From assembly GCA_021731815.1 (NCBI GenBank), contig JAKFWO010000023.1:1-64000 (forward strand): DNA of 64,000 nt, read 5' to 3'. Positions 8,827 through 17,632 of the stretch are shown here, one piece after another. The DNA comes from Hyphomonadaceae bacterium (GTDB lineage Bacteria; Pseudomonadota; Alphaproteobacteria; Caulobacterales; Aquidulcibacteraceae). The position numbers were made by a program, and so were the translations under genes. The notes under the pieces were generated by a model. It was given only the letters and a program-made list of their open reading frames with translations. It was not told the DNA's origin and searched no databases. Within the stretch, counting starts at the first letter, position 1; every line of letters begins with the position of its first letter.

Positions 8827-9657
8827 CTATAGTTGAAACCGCCCGGCGGCGGGGCCCAATTGGGCGCGCAATACCCGGCGCGGGGTTTCGCGCAATTCCC
8901 CGGGCGCGAGCCGGCCCAATTGGAACGGACCATAAGCGATACGGATCAGCCGATTGACCCTGAGCCCCAGCTTTTCGAGCACCTTGCGCACTTCGCGATT
9001 CTTGCCCTCGACGATTGCCACCTGCACCCAGCAATTGGCGGCTCCGGGGGGGCCGGGCTCGAGCAATGCCTCGATCGGGCCATAATGCACGCCATCCACC
9101 GTCACGCCCTGCGCGAGGCGGTCGAGTTCGCTTTGCGCGATGCGGCCAAAGGCGCGCGCACGGTAGCGACGCACCCAGCCGGTCGATGGCAATTCCAGAA
9201 AACGCGACAATTCGCCGTCATTGGTCAGCAGCAACAGGCCTTCCGAGGTCAAATCGAGCCGGCCGACCGAGATTACCCGGGGCAGATCGGGCGGCATGGC
9301 CTCGAACACTGTGGCCCGCCCTTCCGGATCGCGATGGGTGGTGACCAGCCCCGGCGGCTTGTGGTATCGCCACATCCGGGTCGGTTCGGGGCCATCCACG
9401 ATCCGGCCATCCACGCGCAATTCGTCGGCGGCGGTCACTTTCACGGCCGGCGTGTCGAGCGCGCGTCCATTGAGCCGCACCCGGCCCTCGGCGATCAGGC
9501 GCTCGACCTCGCGCCGCGAAGCCACGCCGGCGCGCGCAAGTACCTTGGCCACGCGCTCGCCCGGAATATCGGCCATCGGTGACGGAATCGCTTCCGCGGC
9601 TTTCACACGCGGCGCGGCGGGCGCTTTTGCGCGCACGGGTTTTCTTGTAAGGGCCAT
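8827..9657 (-). CDS. rluB: 23S rRNA pseudouridine synthase (RluB/RsuA family)
   Basis: A 276-residue protein from ATG 9657. A short basic, Ala/Pro-rich N-terminus is followed by an S4 RNA-binding domain (ERVAKVLARAGVASRREVER). The pseudouridine synthase domain has the catalytic Asp in the motif VISVGRLDLTSEGLLLLTND, and RKVLEKLGLRVNRLIRIAYG is the conserved C-terminal block. It probably converts U2605 of 23S rRNA, the RluB target, though RluE/RsuA relatives share the motifs. It lies upstream of rsmD with 10 bp between them and is divergent from tadA with only 20 bp between starts. Confidence 0.88.
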   Translation of the reverse strand: MALTRKPVRAKAPAAPRVKAAEAIPSPMADIPGERVAKVLARAGVASRREVERLIAEGRVRLNGRALDTPAVKVTAADELRVDGRIVDGPEPTRMWRYHKPPGLVTTHRDPEGRATVFEAMPPDLPRVISVGRLDLTSEGLLLLTNDGELSRFLELPSTGWVRRYRARAFGRIAQSELDRLAQGVTVDGVHYGPIEALLEPGPPGAANCWVQVAIVEGKNREVRKVLEKLGLRVNRLIRIAYGPFQLGRLAPGELRETPRRVLRAQLGPAAGRFQL

Positions 9658-9677
9658 GCCATGGTGATGCATGAAAC

Positions 9678-10211
9678 ATGCGCCGGAGGAAAGACTTGAC
9701 CGCATCCCTGCCCGATTCCGACACTGATGCGGGGACCCGGAACCGCGATCTGCGCCTGATGGACGCGGCGCTCGAACAAGCACACGCCGCCGCAGCATCG
9801 GGCGAGGCCCCGGTCGGGGCCATCCTTTATGATCCCGATACGGATTCCATTGTGGCGCGGGCCCATAACCGGCCGATCGGCCTGTGCGACCCGACAGCCC
9901 ACTCCGAAATCCTTGCATTGCGCGCAGGTGCGGAGCTGCGCGGCAATTACCGACTCAATGGATTATGGCTCTATGCAACGCTCGAACCCTGCGCCATGTG
10001 CGCCGGCGCGATGAGCCATGCGCGGATCGGGCGGCTGATTTTCGGGGCGAGCGATCCCAAGGGCGGCGCAGTGCTGCACGGCCCGCTTTTATTCGAACAG
10101 CCGACCTGCCATTGGCGTCCCGCGATCACCTTCGGCCTCCGCGAGACGGAAGCGGCGACGTTGTTGCGGGATTTTTTCCGGGCACGCCGCAAGCCGGGCG
10201 CGCAATGGTAA
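9678..10211 (+). CDS. tadA: tRNA-specific adenosine deaminase TadA
   Basis: A 177-residue protein if ATG 9678 is used; TTG 9696 behind GGAGGAAAGAC is an equally good start (171 residues). The zinc/active-site motifs are PTAHSEILALR, where most TadA proteins have HAEI, and TLEPCAMCAGAM (PCxxC). GDFF-like C-terminal helices end in LLRDFFRARRK. TadA deaminates A34 of tRNA-Arg(ACG) to inosine. The Glu of the H-x-E motif is kept, so the Ala-to-Ser change should be tolerated. It is divergent from rluB. Confidence 0.92.
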   Translation: MRRRKDLTASLPDSDTDAGTRNRDLRLMDAALEQAHAAAASGEAPVGAILYDPDTDSIVARAHNRPIGLCDPTAHSEILALRAGAELRGNYRLNGLWLYATLEPCAMCAGAMSHARIGRLIFGASDPKGGAVLHGPLLFEQPTCHWRPAITFGLRETEAATLLRDFFRARRKPGAQW

Positions 10212-10339
10212 TGCGCTGAACGGGGGTAATGCACTGAACGGGTCGATCGACGCGTCGGGCGCATGGGCAGCCCGCGCAAGAACCAGGCTTGCTCACCGGT
10301 CCAGCTTGTCTGACCTGCCCTGTTTCTTCGGGCCACGCC

Positions 10340-10472
10340 GAGAGCGCGTTCAGAAAAAGTAGAGTGCGTTCAGAAAAGCGGGATCCGGTTTTCGCCTGAA
10401 CGCGCTCCAAATCATTGAATCCGAGCATTTTCAATTCAGACATTCGACTCGGATTTCCTTGAAAAATGCTTG
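10340..10472 (+). repeat. bipartite palindromic repeat family 1, copy B
   Basis: The first palindrome GAGTGCGTTCAGAAAAGC, then TCCGGTTTTCG, then GAACGCGCTC is preceded by an extra partial copy of its left arm (GAGCGCGTTCAGAAAAA). ATCATTGAATCCGAGCATTT leads into the second palindrome, which closes with GAAAAATGCTT. It lies between tadA and the IS3 element. Confidence 0.8.
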
Positions 10473-10713
10473 TCTTATGACTTTCACTACCGATTGGGAG
10501 ATATTGGCACGGCCGACGGGAGTGACCGCTCCCGGTCGGCGGCGAGGGATGGATCGTCATTTTGCAGGAGGTTTGACGCTCCGAGGCAGATGTGGGCTTT
10601 CAATTGGTTGTCCCGGCCCGGCAAATAGCTGAAATCCGGTGAAAAACCGAACCGAAACAGCGTCGACGCAAGACCAGCAACGACTCATTGTCAGGCAAAG
10701 ACATTGTTTTCAT
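10473..10713. other. intergenic gap before the IS3 element
   Basis: Together with the repeat upstream, about 500 bp between tadA and the insertion sequence hold no supported gene. A short frame around 10126-10560 on the minus strand has no recognisable product. Confidence 0.4.
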
Positions 10714-10785
10714 GGGGTAATCCTCCCCGAGGTTAAGGGGCTTTGAAGGTAGAATTTTCTCGGAATGAACAACGAGGAGGTTCTG

Positions 10786-11049
10786 ATGCGCAAGAGCAGA
10801 TTTACAGAGGCCCGGATCATGGGCGTTCTGCGCCAGGTCGAAGGCGGGCTAGCCGTGGCCGATGTATGCCGGGAGCATGCGATCAGCAGCGCGACATTTT
10901 ACAAATGGCGGTCGAAGTATGGCGGCATGGATGCGTCCATGATCTCAGACATGAAGGCCATGGAGGATGAGAACCGGCGTCTGAAGAAGATGTTCGCCGA
11001 ACTGAGCATGCAGAATGAGCTTTTGAAGGAAGCTCTTGGAAAAAAATAA
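10786..11049 (+). CDS. IS3-family transposase OrfA
   Basis: An 87-residue protein from ATG 10786, preceded by the strong ribosome-binding site GAGGAGG. It is an HTH_Tnp_1 domain: [20 protein letters not shown], then [20 protein letters not shown], then a leucine-zipper-like helix ([20 protein letters not shown]). It binds the element ends and regulates transposition. Its end, GGA AAA AAA TAA, is a slippery site that allows a -1 shift into orfB. Confidence 0.93.
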
Positions 11050-11087
11050 CCCGGCCAGCCAGGCGTCGTGAACTGGCCGCGGATGCT

Positions 11088-11879
11088 GTGACGCAAAAGG
11101 GCGTGAGCGTAGCGCTTGCTTGCCGGACGTTTGGCGTCAGCCAGACCTGTTATCGCTATGCGCCAAAGCTGGATCAAGACAATGAGCGGATCGCGGATTT
11201 GCTCGTAGGGCTAACACAGGCTCGACGGACTTGGGGCTTCGGCTTGTGCTTTCTGTATCTGCGCAACGTGAAGGGACACAGATGGAACCACAAACGGGTG
11301 TACCGGATTTATTGTGAACTGGAGCTCAACATGCGCATCAAGCGGAGGAAGCGGCTCAAACGCGAGAAGCCTGATGAGCTTGCGGTCCCCGATGCACCGA
11401 ACACGGTATGGTCGATGGACTTCATGGCGGATCGTCTTGAAGACTGCCGGGTCATCCGGCTGTTGAACGTGGTGGATGACTTCAACCGCGAAGGGTTGGG
11501 CATTGAGGTCGATTTCTCGCTGCCTGCGACACGCGTCATACGAACCCTTGATCGGATCATCGAATGGCGGGGACCACCGCTCGTCATCCGGGTAGACAAC
11601 GGCCCTGAATACATCAGCGGACAGTTGCTGAGATGGGCCGAAGGTCGTGGCATCGCCATCCAACACATCCAGCCAGGTAAGCCGCAGCAGAACGCATACG
11701 TCGAGCGTTACAATCGGACGGTCCGACATGAGTGGCTGGATCAATACATGTTTGCAACGATTGAGGAGGTGCAGGATTACGCCACGCAGTGGCTGTGGAC
11801 TTACAACAACGACCGTCCCAACATGGGGCTCGGCGGCATCACACCCGCCCAGAAACTGAAACAACGAATGGCCGCGTGA
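11088..11879 (+). CDS. IS3-family transposase OrfB (DDE integrase core)
   Basis: 263 residues from the first in-frame start at 11088, but the frame is open back to the A-run at about 11040, so the natural product is probably an OrfAB fusion made by -1 frameshifting ([17 protein letters not shown] joins the two). The rve catalytic core shows VWSMDFMAD (first Asp), [10 protein letters not shown] (second Asp) and [14 protein letters not shown] (Glu), the DDE triad. The N-terminal HTH_21 segment is [14 protein letters not shown]. It catalyses strand transfer of this element. Confidence 0.93.
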
Positions 11880-11920
11880 ATTCTACAATCTCAGCCCACT
11901 AAAAATGGGAGGATTACCCC

Positions 11921-12089
11921 GTCACCCGGTGCAGAAAATCTGCGATCATAGCTGCGCCCTCCGATAATTTCACAAGATTTCATTCACAAAAATTCAGGCG
12001 GGGTATGCATTCATCATGCACCTTTATTCGATCAATGAACATTCCAGAATCCATATCCGGCCCGCAGGGCATCGCTCATGTACCGGCAA
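11921..12089. other. spacer between IS3 element and AT-rich islet
   Basis: No supported gene. It follows the 3' end of the glycine-zipper gene 1 on the minus strand. No hairpin with a T-run was recognised. Confidence 0.35.
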
Positions 12090-12515
12090 TCAACAGATTT
12101 CGTGGCCGATCACGGCTCCAAAACCAGCACCCAGGATCCCTCCCACGGCGATACCCCCAGGCCCCGCCGGACTGCCGACAACGCCACCCACGGCCGCACC
12201 AACCCCACCGGCTACCCCGAGGCAGAAGACATGGACTGATGAATCCTCCTCCGCGTCCTCGCGCTCCGCTGCATCGGCTCGCGCTTCTAAAATTGCTGTC
12301 CTTTCGGCGATAGTCAGTTCATTAAACTCCGGAATTTCCAATTCCGCCGGCAGTGGCGGTACCGGATATAGCTCATCAAGATCATACGGTCCCGGGTAGT
12401 AAGATTGATAATCCGGAATAGATGGGAATCCACCAAAAATAATTCCGTCGTAGAAATTGCCGCCCCAGATCCCGCATTCGAATTTTGCGTGTTTGATACG
12501 AGATGCGGGATCCAT
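12090..12515 (-). CDS. glycine-zipper protein 1, unknown family
   Basis: A 141-residue protein from ATG 12515; the upstream codons are TGA ATA, so no longer frame exists. Order of parts: GGNFYDGIIFGGFP, an acidic Pro/Tyr-rich linker with LPAELEIPEFNELTIAER, a charged helix ending EEDSSVHVFC, then a Gly/Ala zipper (GVAGGVGAAVGGVVG and GGILGAGFGAVIG) bracketed by Cys residues at its start and at the C-terminus. The same order of parts recurs in the gene at 13703-14265. No signal peptide is visible. Glycine zippers of this type insert in or oligomerise at membranes, and some bacteriocins have them; function here is unknown. Low-GC codon use sets it apart from neighbours. Confidence 0.6.
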   Translation of the reverse strand: MDPASRIKHAKFECGIWGGNFYDGIIFGGFPSIPDYQSYYPGPYDLDELYPVPPLPAELEIPEFNELTIAERTAILEARADAAEREDAEEDSSVHVFCLGVAGGVGAAVGGVVGSPAGPGGIAVGGILGAGFGAVIGHEIC

Positions 12516-12551
12516 TATTCATGCCGCCGGGGGGGGGGGGCTGAATAATGG
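12512..12551 (-). promoter_or_regulatory. hairpin with poly(C)12 loop over a start codon
   Basis: CCATTATTCA (12512-12521) and TGAATAATGG (12542-12551) are perfect inverted repeats. The loop contains a run of twelve G on the plus strand (12529-12540), i.e. C12 in the mRNA of the minus-strand genes. The start codon of glycine-zipper gene 1 lies inside one arm. The structure sits in the 39-bp gap between that gene and the stop of the upstream ClpP-like gene. A hairpin would hide the start, and tract length could vary. Confidence 0.6.
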
Positions 12552-12554
12552 ACG

Positions 12555-13382
12555 TTACGGCTGAAACGGCCTCTGGCGCTCGCCAACGATAATATGCGCG
12601 CGGTCGCCGGCATGCCCATTGCCGGAGCGCCCATTCGCGACCTCTTGAAAGAAGCGCGACCCGAGCACCTTCCGAACGATCCGTGCCTGCGGGTTGACAC
12701 GAAACGGCATCACGTCAGGCACGCCAAGTTTACGCAATAATCTGCCGTCCAGCACCCACAATTGCACTTTGTTGGTACGTCGTATTATCTTTCGCTTCCC
12801 CTCGTCAATGATCCGGTAGTCGAAGGGACCCAGCGGCGCACTCAGCTGTTGAAAAAGCGCAGGATTGATCCCGACCTCAGCCGCAATACGTGCATAGTCG
12901 ACGGCTTCGCGTTCAGCATCGCCCAAGGCTGATGAATCGGTGCCCACCCCCAATTTCTCGCGGGCCCCTGCCAACGCGCTGACAGGGTCTTGATCATATC
13001 CAACAATTGCGTCGGATAGAACCAGTTTTTTCGACGCGCAAAGAAAAACAGAGCTGAAGCAAGCGCCTGCGCAAATCGCCGGAACATGAACCGACAAATT
13101 CTTCGCGCGCATCGCCTTACAGATGCGCGATTCCGGAACATTAGCGGTTCCAATCATTGTTACGCTGATAATTCCATTCGGCTCGATATTTGTCCCATGC
13201 AGAAAGGCAATAAACTTCTCATCTGCCGACCCCGTATATTCGGCATAATCAATTTTCAGACCAATTCCTGAAGCATACCAGGGAAGGGCACGAAAAATGG
13301 AGAAAAACAAAAACACGAGCGAAAGCGACAGGCCGATGGCAAAACGTTGCTTTCTGTAAATATGTCGAATTTTCTCAATCAT
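12555..13382 (-). CDS. membrane-anchored ClpP/crotonase-fold-like protein
   Basis: A 275-residue protein from ATG 13382. Residues 14-34 (FAIGLSLSLVFLFFSIFRAL) form one membrane anchor. The body resembles periplasmic ClpP-like proteins of the COG3904 type: NGIISVTMIG, then ESRICKAMRAKNLSVHVP, then ICAGACFSSVFLCASKKLVL and DAIVGYDQ. In those families the block is C-x-S-x-C with a catalytic Ser; here it reads CAGAC, so protease activity may be lost. The family assignment rests on this motif pattern and is moderate. It lies between two paralogous glycine-zipper genes on the same strand and ends 39 bp before one of them, so a shared role (processing, export or membrane assembly) is possible but unproven. 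Confidence 0.55.
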   Translation of the reverse strand: MIEKIRHIYRKQRFAIGLSLSLVFLFFSIFRALPWYASGIGLKIDYAEYTGSADEKFIAFLHGTNIEPNGIISVTMIGTANVPESRICKAMRAKNLSVHVPAICAGACFSSVFLCASKKLVLSDAIVGYDQDPVSALAGAREKLGVGTDSSALGDAEREAVDYARIAAEVGINPALFQQLSAPLGPFDYRIIDEGKRKIIRRTNKVQLWVLDGRLLRKLGVPDVMPFRVNPQARIVRKVLGSRFFQEVANGRSGNGHAGDRAHIIVGERQRPFQP

Positions 13383-13468
13383 TACATCTCCATTTTTTTT
13401 CTACAAGCTTTCATGCATAAAAGTAAAATGACAACAAAATAACGAGCTATGATTTGTAAATAACGAAA

Positions 13469-13699
13469 TCATGCGTGGGCGCCGGTTAAAAACATCGTCA
13501 AGAAGCAAGTCTTGGCTCGCTTCAACACAACAAGCTCTTTATAGCAGACAATCCAAATAATCATAAAATCAACTATTTCATTTAAATAATAAACTACCTT
13601 GGACTTGAGCGCGAAATCACGAATGCTTACAACTGCCCAATTATCAACTAAATTTTCCATTCGCAACTTCAGCAATTTCGGCCCGCAATTGGGCACCAA
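13469..13699 (-). CDS. possible small AT-rich hypothetical protein, 76 aa
   Basis: A 76-codon frame beginning at TTG just after the stop of glycine-zipper gene 2. The middle (VVYYLNEIVDFMIIWIVCYK) could be a membrane segment. There is no recognised motif, the start is weak and the DNA is AT-rich, so the frame may be spurious. Its position inside a same-strand run is the only supporting context. Confidence 0.25.
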   Translation of the reverse strand: MVPNCGPKLLKLRMENLVDNWAVVSIRDFALKSKVVYYLNEIVDFMIIWIVCYKELVVLKRAKTCFLTMFLTGAHA

Positions 13700-13702
13700 G
13701 CG

Positions 13703-14265
13703 TCAGCGACCAGGCAGTAATATAGGGACGTCATTTGTCAGATTGCAATTGATTTCCCCGTCCACTTGACCATAGAGGCCACCAATTGCTCCGCCGATCA
13801 AGGCTCCCACGCTGCCACCGATGGCCTCACCTACCAGCGCACCCACAAAGGTATCTGCGCCAACGTAAAATTCGACGCAATTTTCGTGCTTTATCTCTTC
13901 ACGAAAAAGAGCAAATTCCTCCTCTGCGGAAAGGGGCACAAGCTCCGGGACGTCGATTGGTACGAAATCAGGCGGCGGAAGCAGCTCTGGCGTGTCGTAA
14001 ATAAAATTGGATGGGTCATATGGTCCCGTATTTGCCCCATCGGGAACTATTGTTGGGTAGAGAGAATTTATAACCACCAGGTCATTAACTGCGGCAGGCG
14101 GGGCAAAGGAATCAAAAATAACTCCGTCGTAGAAATTGCCGCCTTCTCCTCCCCCAATTCCGCCGCCAATTTGCGCTGTCAGGTCGGCTTCGCTGCATTC
14201 CGTGATACTCGTATCAAATATCCAGAGGCCCTCTTCTTCACTATAAAAAATGGATCACCGCACAT
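13703..14265 (-). CDS. glycine-zipper protein 2, paralog of the 12090-12515 gene, 5' frameshift
   Basis: The intact part (GTG 14077 to 13703, 124 residues) reads VPDGANTGPYDPSNF, then PDFVPIDVPELVPLSAEEEF, a charged helix ending HENC, a zipper (FVGALVGEAIGGSVGALIGG) and GEINCN. The order matches glycine-zipper protein 1, including Cys on both sides of the zipper. The open frame extends upstream through GGNFYDGVIF and SEADLTAQIGGGIGGG to TGA near 14255 without a start. An ATG at 14265 (MCGDPFF) joins it if one T is added to the six-T run at 14245-14250. The SEADLTAQIGGG stretch resembles a double-glycine leader of exported peptides, which is an inference. Use of GTG 14077 alone would remove this part. 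Confidence 0.5.
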
Positions 14266-14277
14266 GTCACTCTCCCG

Positions 14278-14452
14278 TTTGGCCAAGTGCCCGCGGGGTG
14301 GTTAACGATGATTCAGATTTCTCCGGGGCGCAAGGGAATTTCTTCGACCGCAATGGCATAATAACGCGTCATCTTGCCGCGAAATTTTCCGGAGCCAATC
14401 CGCGCCACTCGCTCATTGCCGCACGGGCATGTGGCGTCGTGGGCAGGTCAGT
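14278..14452. other. spacer between AT-rich islet and repeats upstream of gyrA
   Basis: GC content returns to the genome norm here. No gene supported. Together with 14453-14764 this forms about 490 bp upstream of gyrA. Confidence 0.4.
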
Positions 14453-14532
14453 GCTAGTGGTTCGAACCTGACATTTGCATCCCGGCATTGCAGCGCGCGC
14501 CTGCAAATGTCAGGTTCACAAGAACTACTATG
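14453..14532 (+). repeat. palindromic repeat family 2, copy a
   Basis: A 15-bp perfect stem, AACCTGACATTTGCA (14465-14479) with TGCAAATGTCAGGTT (14502-14516), is nested in an outer GTTC...GAAC pair with flanking AGTGG/ACTA. Copy b at 51346 has the same inner ACATTTGCATCCC and outer GTTC/GAAC layout. Confidence 0.8.
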
Positions 14533-14557
14533 CAATCAGTGGCTTAGTGAAGCTTTT

Positions 14558-14613
14558 GGACCAAACATTCGCACCCGGGCGTTGCGCCAAAGCGGGAAGC
14601 GAATGTTTGGTCC
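14558..14613 (+). repeat. palindromic repeat family 2, divergent copy c
   Basis: GGACCAAACATTCGC (14558-14572) pairs perfectly with GCGAATGTTTGGTCC (14599-14613). The core ACATTCGCACCC parallels ACATTTGCATCC of copies a and b. It lies about 25 bp downstream of copy a, between the islet and gyrA. Confidence 0.65.
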
Positions 14614-14764
14614 GCTCCACCAGACATGCAGGACAGAATCGACTGCCGGTTCGGTCGCTGATTTTCCCGGCGGGTTTCGGTGGGCTTCGGTTGCTTCATC
14701 GACCCCGCTGTCCCGAACGCCCTTACCAAATCCCCTCCCAAATTCCTCTCATGTGAAGTCGCCC

Positions 14765-17632
14765 GTGTCCGATCTCCCCCCCGACCTTCCCGTCGACGAC
14801 CTGCCGCCCGCTCCCGCGCCGAGCGGAATTGCGCCCGTTTTCATCGAAACCGAACTCAAGCGCTCTTATCTCGATTACGCGATGAGCGTGATCGTCTCGC
14901 GCGCGCTGCCCGATGTGCGCGACGGCCTGAAACCGGTGCACCGGCGCATCCTGTTCGGCATGAACGAGGCCGGCAATACCCACGACAAATCCTATCGCAA
15001 AAGCGCCAAGACCGTGGGCGATGTGATGGGCAATTACCATCCCCATGGCGATAACGCGATTTACGACGCTCTGGTGCGCATGGCCCAGGATTTCTCCATG
15101 GGCCTGCCTTTGGTCGATGGCCAGGGCAATTTCGGCTCGGTCGATGGCGATCCGCCGGCCGCCATGCGCTATACCGAAAGCCGGCTGGCCAAACCGGCCA
15201 ATGCGCTGCTGGCGGATATCGATGAGGGCACGGTCGATTTCACCGAAAATTATGACGGCTCGCGCCTCGAACCCCTGGTGCTGCCTGCGCGCTTCCCCAA
15301 TCTGCTGGTCAATGGGGCCAATGGCATTGCGGTCGGTATGGCGACCAATATTCCGCCCCATAATCTGGGCGAGGTGATCGACGCGACGCTTGCCCTGCTC
15401 GATAATCCCGCGCTCAGCGAATTCGACCTGCTTGACATCGTTCCGGCCCCCGATTTCCCGACGGGGGGCGAGATCATCGGCCGCTCGGGCTCGCGCTCGG
15501 GGCTGCTCACGGGCCGCGGCTCGGTCATTTTGCGCGCCAAAACCCATTTCGAGGAGATCCGCAAGGACCGCAACGCCATTATCGTCACCGAGATCCCCTA
15601 TCAGGTGAACAAGGCGACCATGCAGGAGCGCATCGCCGATCTGGTGCGCGAGAAGCGGGTCGAAGGCATCTCCGACATCCGCGACGAAAGCGACCGCCGC
15701 GGCTATCGGGTGGTGATCGAACTCAAGCGCGATGCCTCGCCCGAAATCGTGCTCAACCAATTGCATCGCTTCTCGCAGCTGCAGATCTCGTTCGGTGTCA
15801 ATATGCTGGCGCTGAATGGCGGGCGGCCGCTGCAAATGGGCCTCAAGGCGATCCTCGAGGCCTTTCTGGTGTTTCGCGAGGAATCTGTCCTGCGCCGCAC
15901 CCGCAAATGGCTGGCCGATGCGCGCAAGCGCGGGCACGAGCTTGCGGGGCTCGCCATCGCTGTCGCCAATATCGACGAGGTGATCCGCATCATCCGCGAG
16001 GCCCCCGACCCCAATTCAGCGCGCGAGGGGCTGATGTCGCGCGACTGGCCGGCCCGTGACATGGCACCGCTTGTCGCCCTGATCGCCGACCCGCGCTCGA
16101 AACTCGATGGCGAGGATCGGCTGCGCCTGTCGCTCGAACAGGCGCGCGCGATTCTGGAATTGCGGCTCCAGCGCCTGACCGGGCTGGGGCGCGACGAGAT
16201 CGGGGCGGAAGCCGAAAAACTCTCGGCGCGCATTCGCGACCTGCTCGACATTCTGGGTTCGCGCCCGCGCGTGCATGCCATCATGCGCGAGGATCTGCTG
16301 GCGGTGCGCGAGGCCTTTGCCGTGCCCCGCCGGACGAAGATCGTCGAGGCCGAAACCGAACTCGAGGACGAGGATTTCATCGAGAAGGAGGACATGGTCG
16401 TCACCATTACACGCGATGGCTATGTCAAGCGCACGCCGCTCGCGATCTACCGCACCCAGAAACGTGGCGGCAAGGGCCGGGCAGCGGTCGCCATGAAGGA
16501 CGAGGATTATGTCACGCGCCTGTTCGTGGCCTCAACCCATGCGCCGGTCCTGTTCTTTTCCTCGGCGGGCACGGTCTATATGCTCAAGGTCTGGCGCCTG
16601 CCGCTCGGCGCGCCGCAATCCAAGGGCAAGGCCTTTGTCAATCTGCTGCCGCTCGATCCCAATGAGCGCATCACTTCGGTCATGGCCCTGCCCGAGGACG
16701 AGAAAGGCTGGGCGGCGTTTGACCTGATGTTTGCCACGCGGCTCGGCAATGTGCGGCGGAACTCGCTGGCGGATTTCGTCAATGTCAACCGCGCGGGCAA
16801 GATCGCCATGAAGCCCGATGAGGGGGATGGCATCGTCGATGTGCAATTATGCGGGCGCAGCGACAATATCCTGCTCACCACGGCGAGTGCCGCCTGTATC
16901 CGCTTTGCTGTGGATGATGTGCGGGTGTTCAAGGGACGCGATTCCACCGGTGTACGCGGGATCAATCTCGCGGCGGGCGACGAAGTGATCGCCATGACGG
17001 TGCTCAACCATGTGGATGTTGTCCCGACCGAGGCGCGTGCCTTTCTGCGCCATGCGGCGGCCTTGCGGCGTGCGGCGGGGGAGGGCGGTGCGGATGTGGC
17101 CCCCGAACCGGAATCGGACGCAGAACCGGAAATGTCCGAGGGCGAATCCGTCGGCAGCGAGAGCGAATTGGCCAGTTTGTCGCAGGAAAGGCTGGCCAGC
17201 CTCGGTTCGCAGGAACAATTCGTGCTGACCATCACCAGCGATGGCTATGGCAAACGGGCCTCGGCCTATGAATATCGCAAGACGGGTCGCGGCGGAAAGG
17301 GCATCGTCGCCCATCGGCTGAGCGCTGTGGGACGGGTGGTCGCCTCCTTCCCTGTAGCGGTGGCCGATGAATTGCTGCTGGTGACCGATGGCGGACAGAT
17401 GATCCGCTGCCCGGTGGCGGGCGTGCGTATTGCCGGCCGCGCCACGCAAGGCGTGATGGTCATTCGCCCCGCACCGGGTGAAAAAGTGGTGGGGGTGGAG
17501 CGCCTTGTCGATCTGGGCGGCGACAGCGGATCTCCGGATGGCGATCCGCTCGACAATTCCCGCCCGGAAAATGGCCAGCCGGAAAATGGGGCACCCGAAA
17601 TCGGGAATTCCGGCCCAATTGCGGAAGGCTGA
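14765..17632 (+). CDS. gyrA: DNA gyrase subunit A
   Basis: 955 residues from GTG 14765; GTG 14750 is an alternative, and neither has a strong ribosome-binding site. It begins with [20 protein letters not shown] and [16 protein letters not shown]. The catalytic Tyr is in [10 protein letters not shown]. The C-terminal domain carries the GyrA box QKRGGKGR, which separates GyrA from ParC. A low-complexity acidic insert ([17 protein letters not shown]) interrupts the C-terminal blades, as in other alphaproteobacterial GyrA. GyrA with GyrB introduces negative supercoils. In the quinolone region the sequence is [13 protein letters not shown]: the position equal to E. coli Ser83 is Asn, while Asp87 is kept. 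The gene is monocistronic in appearance. Confidence 0.93.

Follow-up and report, generated by a model that had tools for sequence, protein, structure and literature searches.

In the window, by which we mean the whole stretch of 64,000 nucleotides (nt) analysed here (contig JAKFWO010000023.1 of a Hyphomonadaceae bacterium), positions 12,090 to 14,265 hold a small islet of genes on the minus strand, in which two paralogous glycine-zipper proteins, ZipA and ZipB, surround a membrane-anchored ClpP-like protein. We read this islet, tentatively and with somewhat less than an even chance of being right, as derived from a double-glycine (GG; microcin-like) secreted-peptide cassette, now degenerate and without an exporter. 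On the whole, the relatives of the ClpP-like gene are associated with such cassettes far above chance, but in part of the family only. The islet itself is probably decayed, since the catalytic Ser and His are gone from the ClpP-like protein, no standard start precedes the shared motif of ZipA and no C39 peptidase is matched in the genome. The features on which the argument rests are as follows.

13703..14254, minus strand: ZipA (protein 2 of the initial annotation), an open frame of 183 amino acids (aa) with a glycine zipper, first in transcription order
14162..14206, minus strand: leader-like stretch ITECSEADLTAQIGG of ZipA, weak by leader score
14113..14143, minus strand: shared-motif block of ZipA, 31 nt coding for GGNFYDGVIF, 97% identical to the ZipB block
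12555..13382, minus strand: membrane-anchored ClpP-fold protein of 275 aa from an ATG, a predicted pseudoprotease (Ser to Gly, giving CAGAC; His to Asp)
12434..12464, minus strand: shared-motif block of ZipB, 31 nt coding for GGNFYDGIIF, by nucleotide comparison
12090..12515, minus strand: ZipB (protein 1 of the initial annotation), 141 aa from an ATG, with a Cys-bracketed glycine zipper, paralogue of ZipA

The kinship of the two zipper proteins, which the initial annotation had proposed, is borne out by the comparison. As a single BLASTP comparison they show 32% identity over 111 aa with an E value of 1e-6, and their Smith-Waterman score of 136 lies above all 1000 block shuffles (maximum 98); with the shared motif masked, the score is 99 against a shuffle maximum of 90, and for the linker alone it is equalled by 20 of 2000 shuffles. 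Both proteins have the same order of parts, namely GGNFYDG[IV]IF, a linker of Pro and acidic residues, and a zipper between two Cys, and in both the glycine zipper or zippers are bounded by Pro or charged residues (judged by eye and from sub-threshold glycine-zipper matches). The two 31-nt blocks agree in 30 of 31 nt with sharp edges, and the same codon is used for all nine identical residues inside the block versus 16 of 41 outside it. Searches of Pfam, NCBIfam and PHROGs give no over-threshold family for any open reading frame (ORF) of the islet, the best PHROGs value being E 0.0013 for ZipA in a search that has no cut-off. The best Pfam match of ZipA is Gly-zipper_Omp (E 1.7e-4, 21.9 bits, under the cut-off of 25), and those at the top for ZipB are Gly-zipper_Omp, C19orf12 and Rick_17kDa, all under cut-off. 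Of the 60 family genomes searched, the window's own alone has the pair, and besides the window pair the zipper profile A1 finds in the family genomes one zipper-only protein (L119, E 0.005). A pattern search for GGNFYDG in 398 genomes of the order matches two, that of the window and G243, whose copy lies in no listed ORF of at least 50 aa; 25 matches in viral contigs include none with the context of zipper proteins. No match is found for ZipB against genome contigs or for ZipA against plasmids.

The membrane ClpP-like protein, also named in the initial annotation, is upheld, weakly from its own sequence and more clearly by family profile and fold. Its own sequence matches the phrog 'protease' at E 0.091 and has no Pfam or NCBIfam match, while the profile of its family finds ClpP in the PDB with E 3.9e-4. 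The AlphaFold model of a relative from an Algimonas sp. record (L113), with a predicted local distance difference test score (pLDDT) of 71.8, matches ClpP by Foldseek at E 2.9e-6, and its Z scores are 12 for ClpP and 11.9 for 1510-N, a membrane protease; the model of the window protein itself is of low confidence (pLDDT 64), and its match list is led by SppA, crotonases and ClpP (best E 3e-4). The membrane anchor is an N-terminal helix. Each of the 39 relatives for which an ORF is called shows C-x-S-x-C and then His, with a spacing of 24 residues in 35 of the 39; in ClpP the Ser-His spacing is 25. The window protein has CAGAC and Asp in place of CxSxC and His, with both Cys kept, and in a 19-row alignment (A3) it is the sole row departing at S56, G59, S86 and H110, the other 18 keeping Ser and His. 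It is predicted from these residues to be a pseudoprotease. With the catalytic Ser and His gone, processing is unlikely for the window copy, and its proposed role as processing factor for the zipper proteins is therefore dropped. The best relative among 61 related genomes (its own included) is found in G005, of the same family and another genus (E 5.9e-5), and with a two-row profile (A2) and a limit of E <= 0.01, matches are found in 83 of the 398 genomes searched within the order, including those of the two queries. The window protein has no match in plasmids or viral contigs, nor does a Pantoea relative in phages.

It is the surroundings of these relatives that point to a secreted peptide. 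In G005, a 148-aa ORF for a GG-leader precursor, with MRELREQEVRSVSGG at its beginning and a glycine zipper at its end, stands immediately upstream of the ClpP-like gene. At the level of the order we considered 41 places, the best-ranked of the A2 list down to E 1.1e-4 together with a second place in G239 (4.8e-4), leaving out the window's own place and G155:C12. A C39 domain lies within 5 kb of the ClpP-like gene at 5 of the 41, versus 0.084 expected. At these order-level loci C39 is named by Pfam and HlyD by eye, and HlyD-like ORFs are visible at some of the C39-bearing places. The leader scan covered 40 genes (L076, without an ORF call, was left out, and the L065 gene was set by hand) and shows a strict GG-leader ORF on the same strand near 8 of them, with 11 matches in 77.8 kb and none antisense. 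Farther away there are 2 matches on the same strand (177.6 kb), both of which belong to the L068 cluster, and 2 antisense, of which one is a peptide that the count near the second ClpP-like gene of L096 already includes. Two further ClpP-like genes with a GG leader (L075, L096a) were found by reading outside the strict scan; all these counts are lower bounds, since GTG and TTG codons were read as M. On plasmids, searches gave 19 and 16 records, and 3 of the 11 places opened carry a ClpP-like gene, a small peptide, HlyD and C39, in the order GG peptide-ClpP-HlyD-C39 in Vibrio maritimus, ClpP-GG peptide-HlyD-C39 in Pantoea dispersa, and ClpP-peptide with a leader ending in GA-HlyD-C39 in Klebsiella variicola.

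Some of these loci have features of their own. The region L110:4818-9333 of the K. variicola conjugative plasmid holds the ClpP-like ORF, a Gly-rich peptide with the leader MRELNENELSHVSGA, HlyD and the C39 exporter, where the ClpP-like ORF and the peptide are annotated as hypothetical. At L068:3964-9887, there are two types of GG-leader precursor, five genes in all, interspersed with a ClpP-like gene and others; the same record region is covered by L114, a Robiginitomaculum locus with a GG precursor, a ClpP-like gene and a C39 exporter. Three of these precursors have 71-73 of their first 84 nt in common and, ungapped, 25-29 of the next 84, so that precursors of one type appear by their nucleotides to combine a constant leader with a variable body; the q1/q2 pair was left out of the body comparison because an indel makes the ungapped figure meaningless. 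At L075:4158-4979, a second ClpP-like ORF, also a profile match, stands directly before the first and after the GG-leader ORF, making tandem ClpP-like genes.

In the host of the window, the corresponding parts are not found or depart from those of the relatives. No C39 exporter lies beside the islet, and the host genome (99.77% complete) has no match to the C39 peptidase at E <= 0.01, a search in which 8 of 14 control genomes match. The ZipA frame is open from 14254 and has no ATG, GTG or TTG until a GTG at 14077, past the motif that it shares with ZipB. The ATG at 14265, from which the initial annotation had read the protein as one ORF, is preceded by GGGAGAG and stands in another frame, so this start is discarded; where the leader's start Met would stand in ITECSEADLTAQIGG, the codon is ATC. 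The double-glycine export leader formerly suggested for this protein, SEADLTAQIGGGIGGG, scores 2.1 bits versus 24-45 bits for 16 GG leaders of ClpP-linked loci, which score high by construction as the score was built from them, and of the window's 810 14-mers ending in GG, 20 equal or beat it; ZipB scores -6 bits. The leader is far below real ones and not significant, and the leader-like stretch aligns with MRELSVDELSEVVGG (L097).

As the decayed-cassette reading has it, an intact cassette would consist of one or more GG-leader precursor genes and a membrane-anchored ClpP-fold serine protease, joined in part of the relatives by an HlyD-type adaptor and a C39 peptidase exporter of the ATP-binding cassette (ABC) class. 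The C39 exporter would cut the precursor after its GG and carry it out; for such exporters it is established that the C39 domain makes this cut in the course of export, according to the part of a review on double-glycine peptides available to us (PMC10885120). The periplasm-facing ClpP-like protein would most likely act on exported or mis-targeted peptide, for self-protection or trimming, as its location and fold suggest. We infer that ZipA and ZipB descend from zipper-bodied GG precursors, that the intact relatives of the ClpP-like protein work as proteases, and that the locus has decayed, leaving the two descendants around a protein without catalytic Ser and His. Neither cleavage and export nor the ClpP-like step would then be able to run in the window as in the relatives, and ZipB, perhaps ZipA too, may remain as membrane-active proteins to which the pseudoprotease binds. 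What survives of the earlier proposal, a bacteriocin-like secreted peptide with a ClpP-like partner, is the kinship to relatives that adjoin GG precursors and C39 exporters, with G005 among them, but not the start of ZipA, its leader or a C39 exporter here. Likewise, the genes do co-occur elsewhere as far as a ClpP-like gene with a GG precursor is concerned, but not as a zipper pair in the family genomes searched. The earlier argument from the Cys pairs around the zipper to a special secreted peptide has been abandoned, because ordinary-looking envelope proteins carry such pairs too: L017 and L119, family proteins that look Sec-exported by eye, have Cys-bracketed zippers as well.

A number of results weigh against the descent from a GG cassette. 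The ZipA, ClpP-like and ZipB frames are all open, which is not expected at a long-dead locus; neither zipper protein qualifies as a GG-leader precursor, the ZipA leader being not significant by itself and ZipB having none. The likeness of ZipA to the G005 precursor is confined to the zipper (pairwise E 9e-4), and composition may be its cause. The window ClpP-like protein has low identity to its relatives (22% at best in the tree set, 25% to G005), the tree leaves it unplaced, and a long branch like its own (3.37 versus a median of 1.22) is also seen in relatives such as L081 (3.47) and L096a (3.05), whose active sites are intact. Concerning the exporter, C39 is matched in 24 of 48 chosen related genomes and not in the other 24, including 6 of 16 of the same family; one of these six is the draft genome G166 (310 contigs), where a GG-leader ORF adjoins a ClpP-like gene that is intact (L092). 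The type I models TIGR01843 (HlyD) and TIGR01846 (HlyB) stay under cut-off in the host, with only 1 of 14 controls passing either, and the host genome holds sub-cut-off ABC exporters (334 bits) and adaptors. Nor does the bacteriocin leader model TIGR01847 match the host genome; it matches only 3 of 14 controls and leaves unmatched 2 of the 3 tested GG precursors of relatives that have any bacteriocin-model match. Lastly, 30 of the 40 ClpP-like genes are without a GG leader in both scans, and no annotated C39 stands beside 8 of the 11 plasmid places (Hirschia 1, Pseudoalteromonas 3, Vibrio harveyi 1, Serratia 3), a negative that is weak because the plasmid gene tables are incomplete; together, these figures show that the family is wider than GG cassettes.

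Other explanations have to be considered with the same evidence. The islet may be a working, repurposed envelope module, in which Cys-bracketed two-helix zippers would be bound by a non-catalytic ClpP-like scaffold and exported by a route other than C39. This is consistent with the open frames, with the Cys pair kept around the dead Ser (CAGAC), with Gly-zipper_Omp as the best match of ZipA and among the top matches of ZipB, although under cut-off, and with the Cys-bracketed zippers of L017 and L119. We nevertheless hold it to be unlikely, as no signal peptide or lipobox is seen by eye at the N-terminus of ZipA or ZipB, ZipA lacks a standard start, and the pair recurs in no other family genome searched. 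Chance neighbourhood, that is, unrelated weak ORFs without any system in an AT-rich gap beside a transposon, would agree with the poor codon scores of the islet ORFs, which range from -0.004 to -0.18 per codon versus 0.187 for the ORF from 14429 on the plus strand, which we take to be gyrA-like, and are unlike those of the window's long ORFs. In 500 random Markov sequences, moreover, the length of ZipB is reached by 96, that of ZipA by 16 and that of the ClpP-like ORF by 1, so that ORF length alone is weak evidence and has been dropped as proof of the zipper genes. The paralogy of ZipA and ZipB beyond all shuffles, the homologues and fold of the ClpP-like protein, and the similar zipper/ClpP-like pairing in G005 however make mere chance quite improbable.

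Another possibility is cassette switching, where the 31-nt blocks would be recombination points swapping zipper bodies behind one leader, with ZipA expressed and ZipB as silent donor. The nearly identical, sharp-edged blocks with their uniform codons, the leader-like sequence in ZipA only, and the L068 precursors with constant leader DNA and differing bodies speak for it. But there is one genome only and no rearranged form is seen, the same pattern could arise from strong constraint on the protein since a recent duplication, and a ZipA that lacks a standard start cannot be the expressed copy; we thus consider it highly improbable. The preferred reading, of a cassette in decay, can also be carried further: a CxSxC...H family of membrane ClpP-fold proteases would be a recurrent fourth component of GG export loci in Alpha- and Gammaproteobacteria, probably degrading the cell's own peptide in the periplasm and so protecting the producer, and the window would hold an offshoot with a pseudo-enzyme and with paired zipper bodies that follow a constant block of 31 nt, an arrangement that may serve body swapping. 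In this extended form it seems to us somewhat unlikely.

Among known systems, Cdz (CdzC/CdzD) of Caulobacter comprises contact-dependent glycine-zipper bacteriocins with a zipper pair, a membrane immunity protein, an exporter of its own and a leader, as described in the part of the report available to us (PMC5380434). According to the same part, Cdz-like peptides have 60-151 residues, a leader ending in G[G/A/S], one or two zippers bounded by Pro or charged residues and a type I secretion system, and their loci are often flanked by transposases (PMC5380434). Like the islet, Cdz as described there has two small glycine-zipper proteins and a membrane partner gene in one locus; the islet differs in having a ClpP-fold protein, no adjoining exporter and no clear leader (PMC5380434). 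The Caulobacter host is probably of the same order as that of the window. With its 141 aa ZipB lies inside the length range, while the ZipA frame has 183 aa and no standard start, and no Cdz-type leader is found in either by their scores of 2.1 and -6 bits, which were taken against the GG leaders of ClpP-linked loci and not against Cdz leaders. We do not file the islet as Cdz, since the leader is lacking and the evidence on length and type I secretion points neither way. The word 'ClpP' stands nowhere in the text of the Cdz paper (PMC5380434), nor in that of the double-glycine review (PMC10885120).

As for double-glycine/C39 peptide loci, in the terms of the available part of that review (PMC10885120), relatives of the ClpP-like gene are part of them, whereas the window genome has no C39 match and the ZipA leader is not significant; the window does hold a ClpP-like partner from a cassette-linked family, a link found here and not a published criterion. 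Our search of open-licence PubMed Central literature, by title and abstract start, found no ClpP-fold gene in GG loci. With ClpP, SppA and the membrane-bound stomatin-specific protease 1510-N the ClpP-like family has the fold in common, but differs by the CxSxC around its nucleophile, and the window copy by the loss of Ser and His. The glycine-zipper envelope proteins (Gly-zipper_Omp, Rick_17kDa) are alike in zipper composition, and some in Cys brackets, but ZipA and ZipB stay under every curated cut-off and show no Sec signal or lipobox by eye. The islet, itself probably decayed, draws attention to a gene association in two proteobacterial classes, plasmids included, in which a ClpP-fold protein adjoins GG-leader peptides and C39 exporters. 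Should the ClpP-like protein serve in immunity or maturation, it could help to find microcin-like loci that have gone unrecognised; if true, the ClpP fold would be used in self-protection against exported peptides.

Finally, we describe the remaining features in and around the islet.

13469..13699, minus strand: ORF of 76 aa with a TTG start, probably no gene, without Pfam or NCBIfam match
12511..12552, no strand assigned: inverted repeat TCCATTATTCA enclosing 12 consecutive G (12529-12540), located between the stop of the ClpP-like ORF and the start of ZipB
10713..11921, plus strand: insertion-sequence element of IS3 type (family named by eye) with two transposase ORFs (Pfam HTH_Tnp_1 and rve) and inverted repeats

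The islet genes are bounded by the IS3-type element and the presumed gyrA-like ORF. The islet is real, with two zipper genes and a ClpP-like gene, but not the intact system of four genes formerly described, for the 76-aa ORF is unsupported, with a codon score of -0.183 per codon and, besides its TTG start, a single PHROG match that is weak (E 0.016) and to a family without known function. Its AT-richness holds in part: the bin 13001-14000 has 45% GC, the lowest of the 64 one-kb bins of the window (others 55-70%), but the bin containing ZipB, with 57%, is within the ordinary range. The IS3-type element lies beside the islet and outside it, is single-copy in the genome and has a 3-bp TCA repeat at its ends; it is therefore ruled out as breaker of the cassette. 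Promoter and terminator scans are near shuffle level (5 vs 2.7 and 4 vs 3.9, respectively), and an Rfam scan of 9500-17000 shows nothing reaching the gathering threshold. The window has no G/C run longer than the 12 G at 12529-12540, and the second in length has 7; long G runs are phase-variable sites elsewhere. In addition, with no repeats of either elsewhere in the window, two adjacent perfect hairpins precede the gyrA-like ORF, at 14464-14517 and 14558-14613, with arms of 16 and 15 bp.

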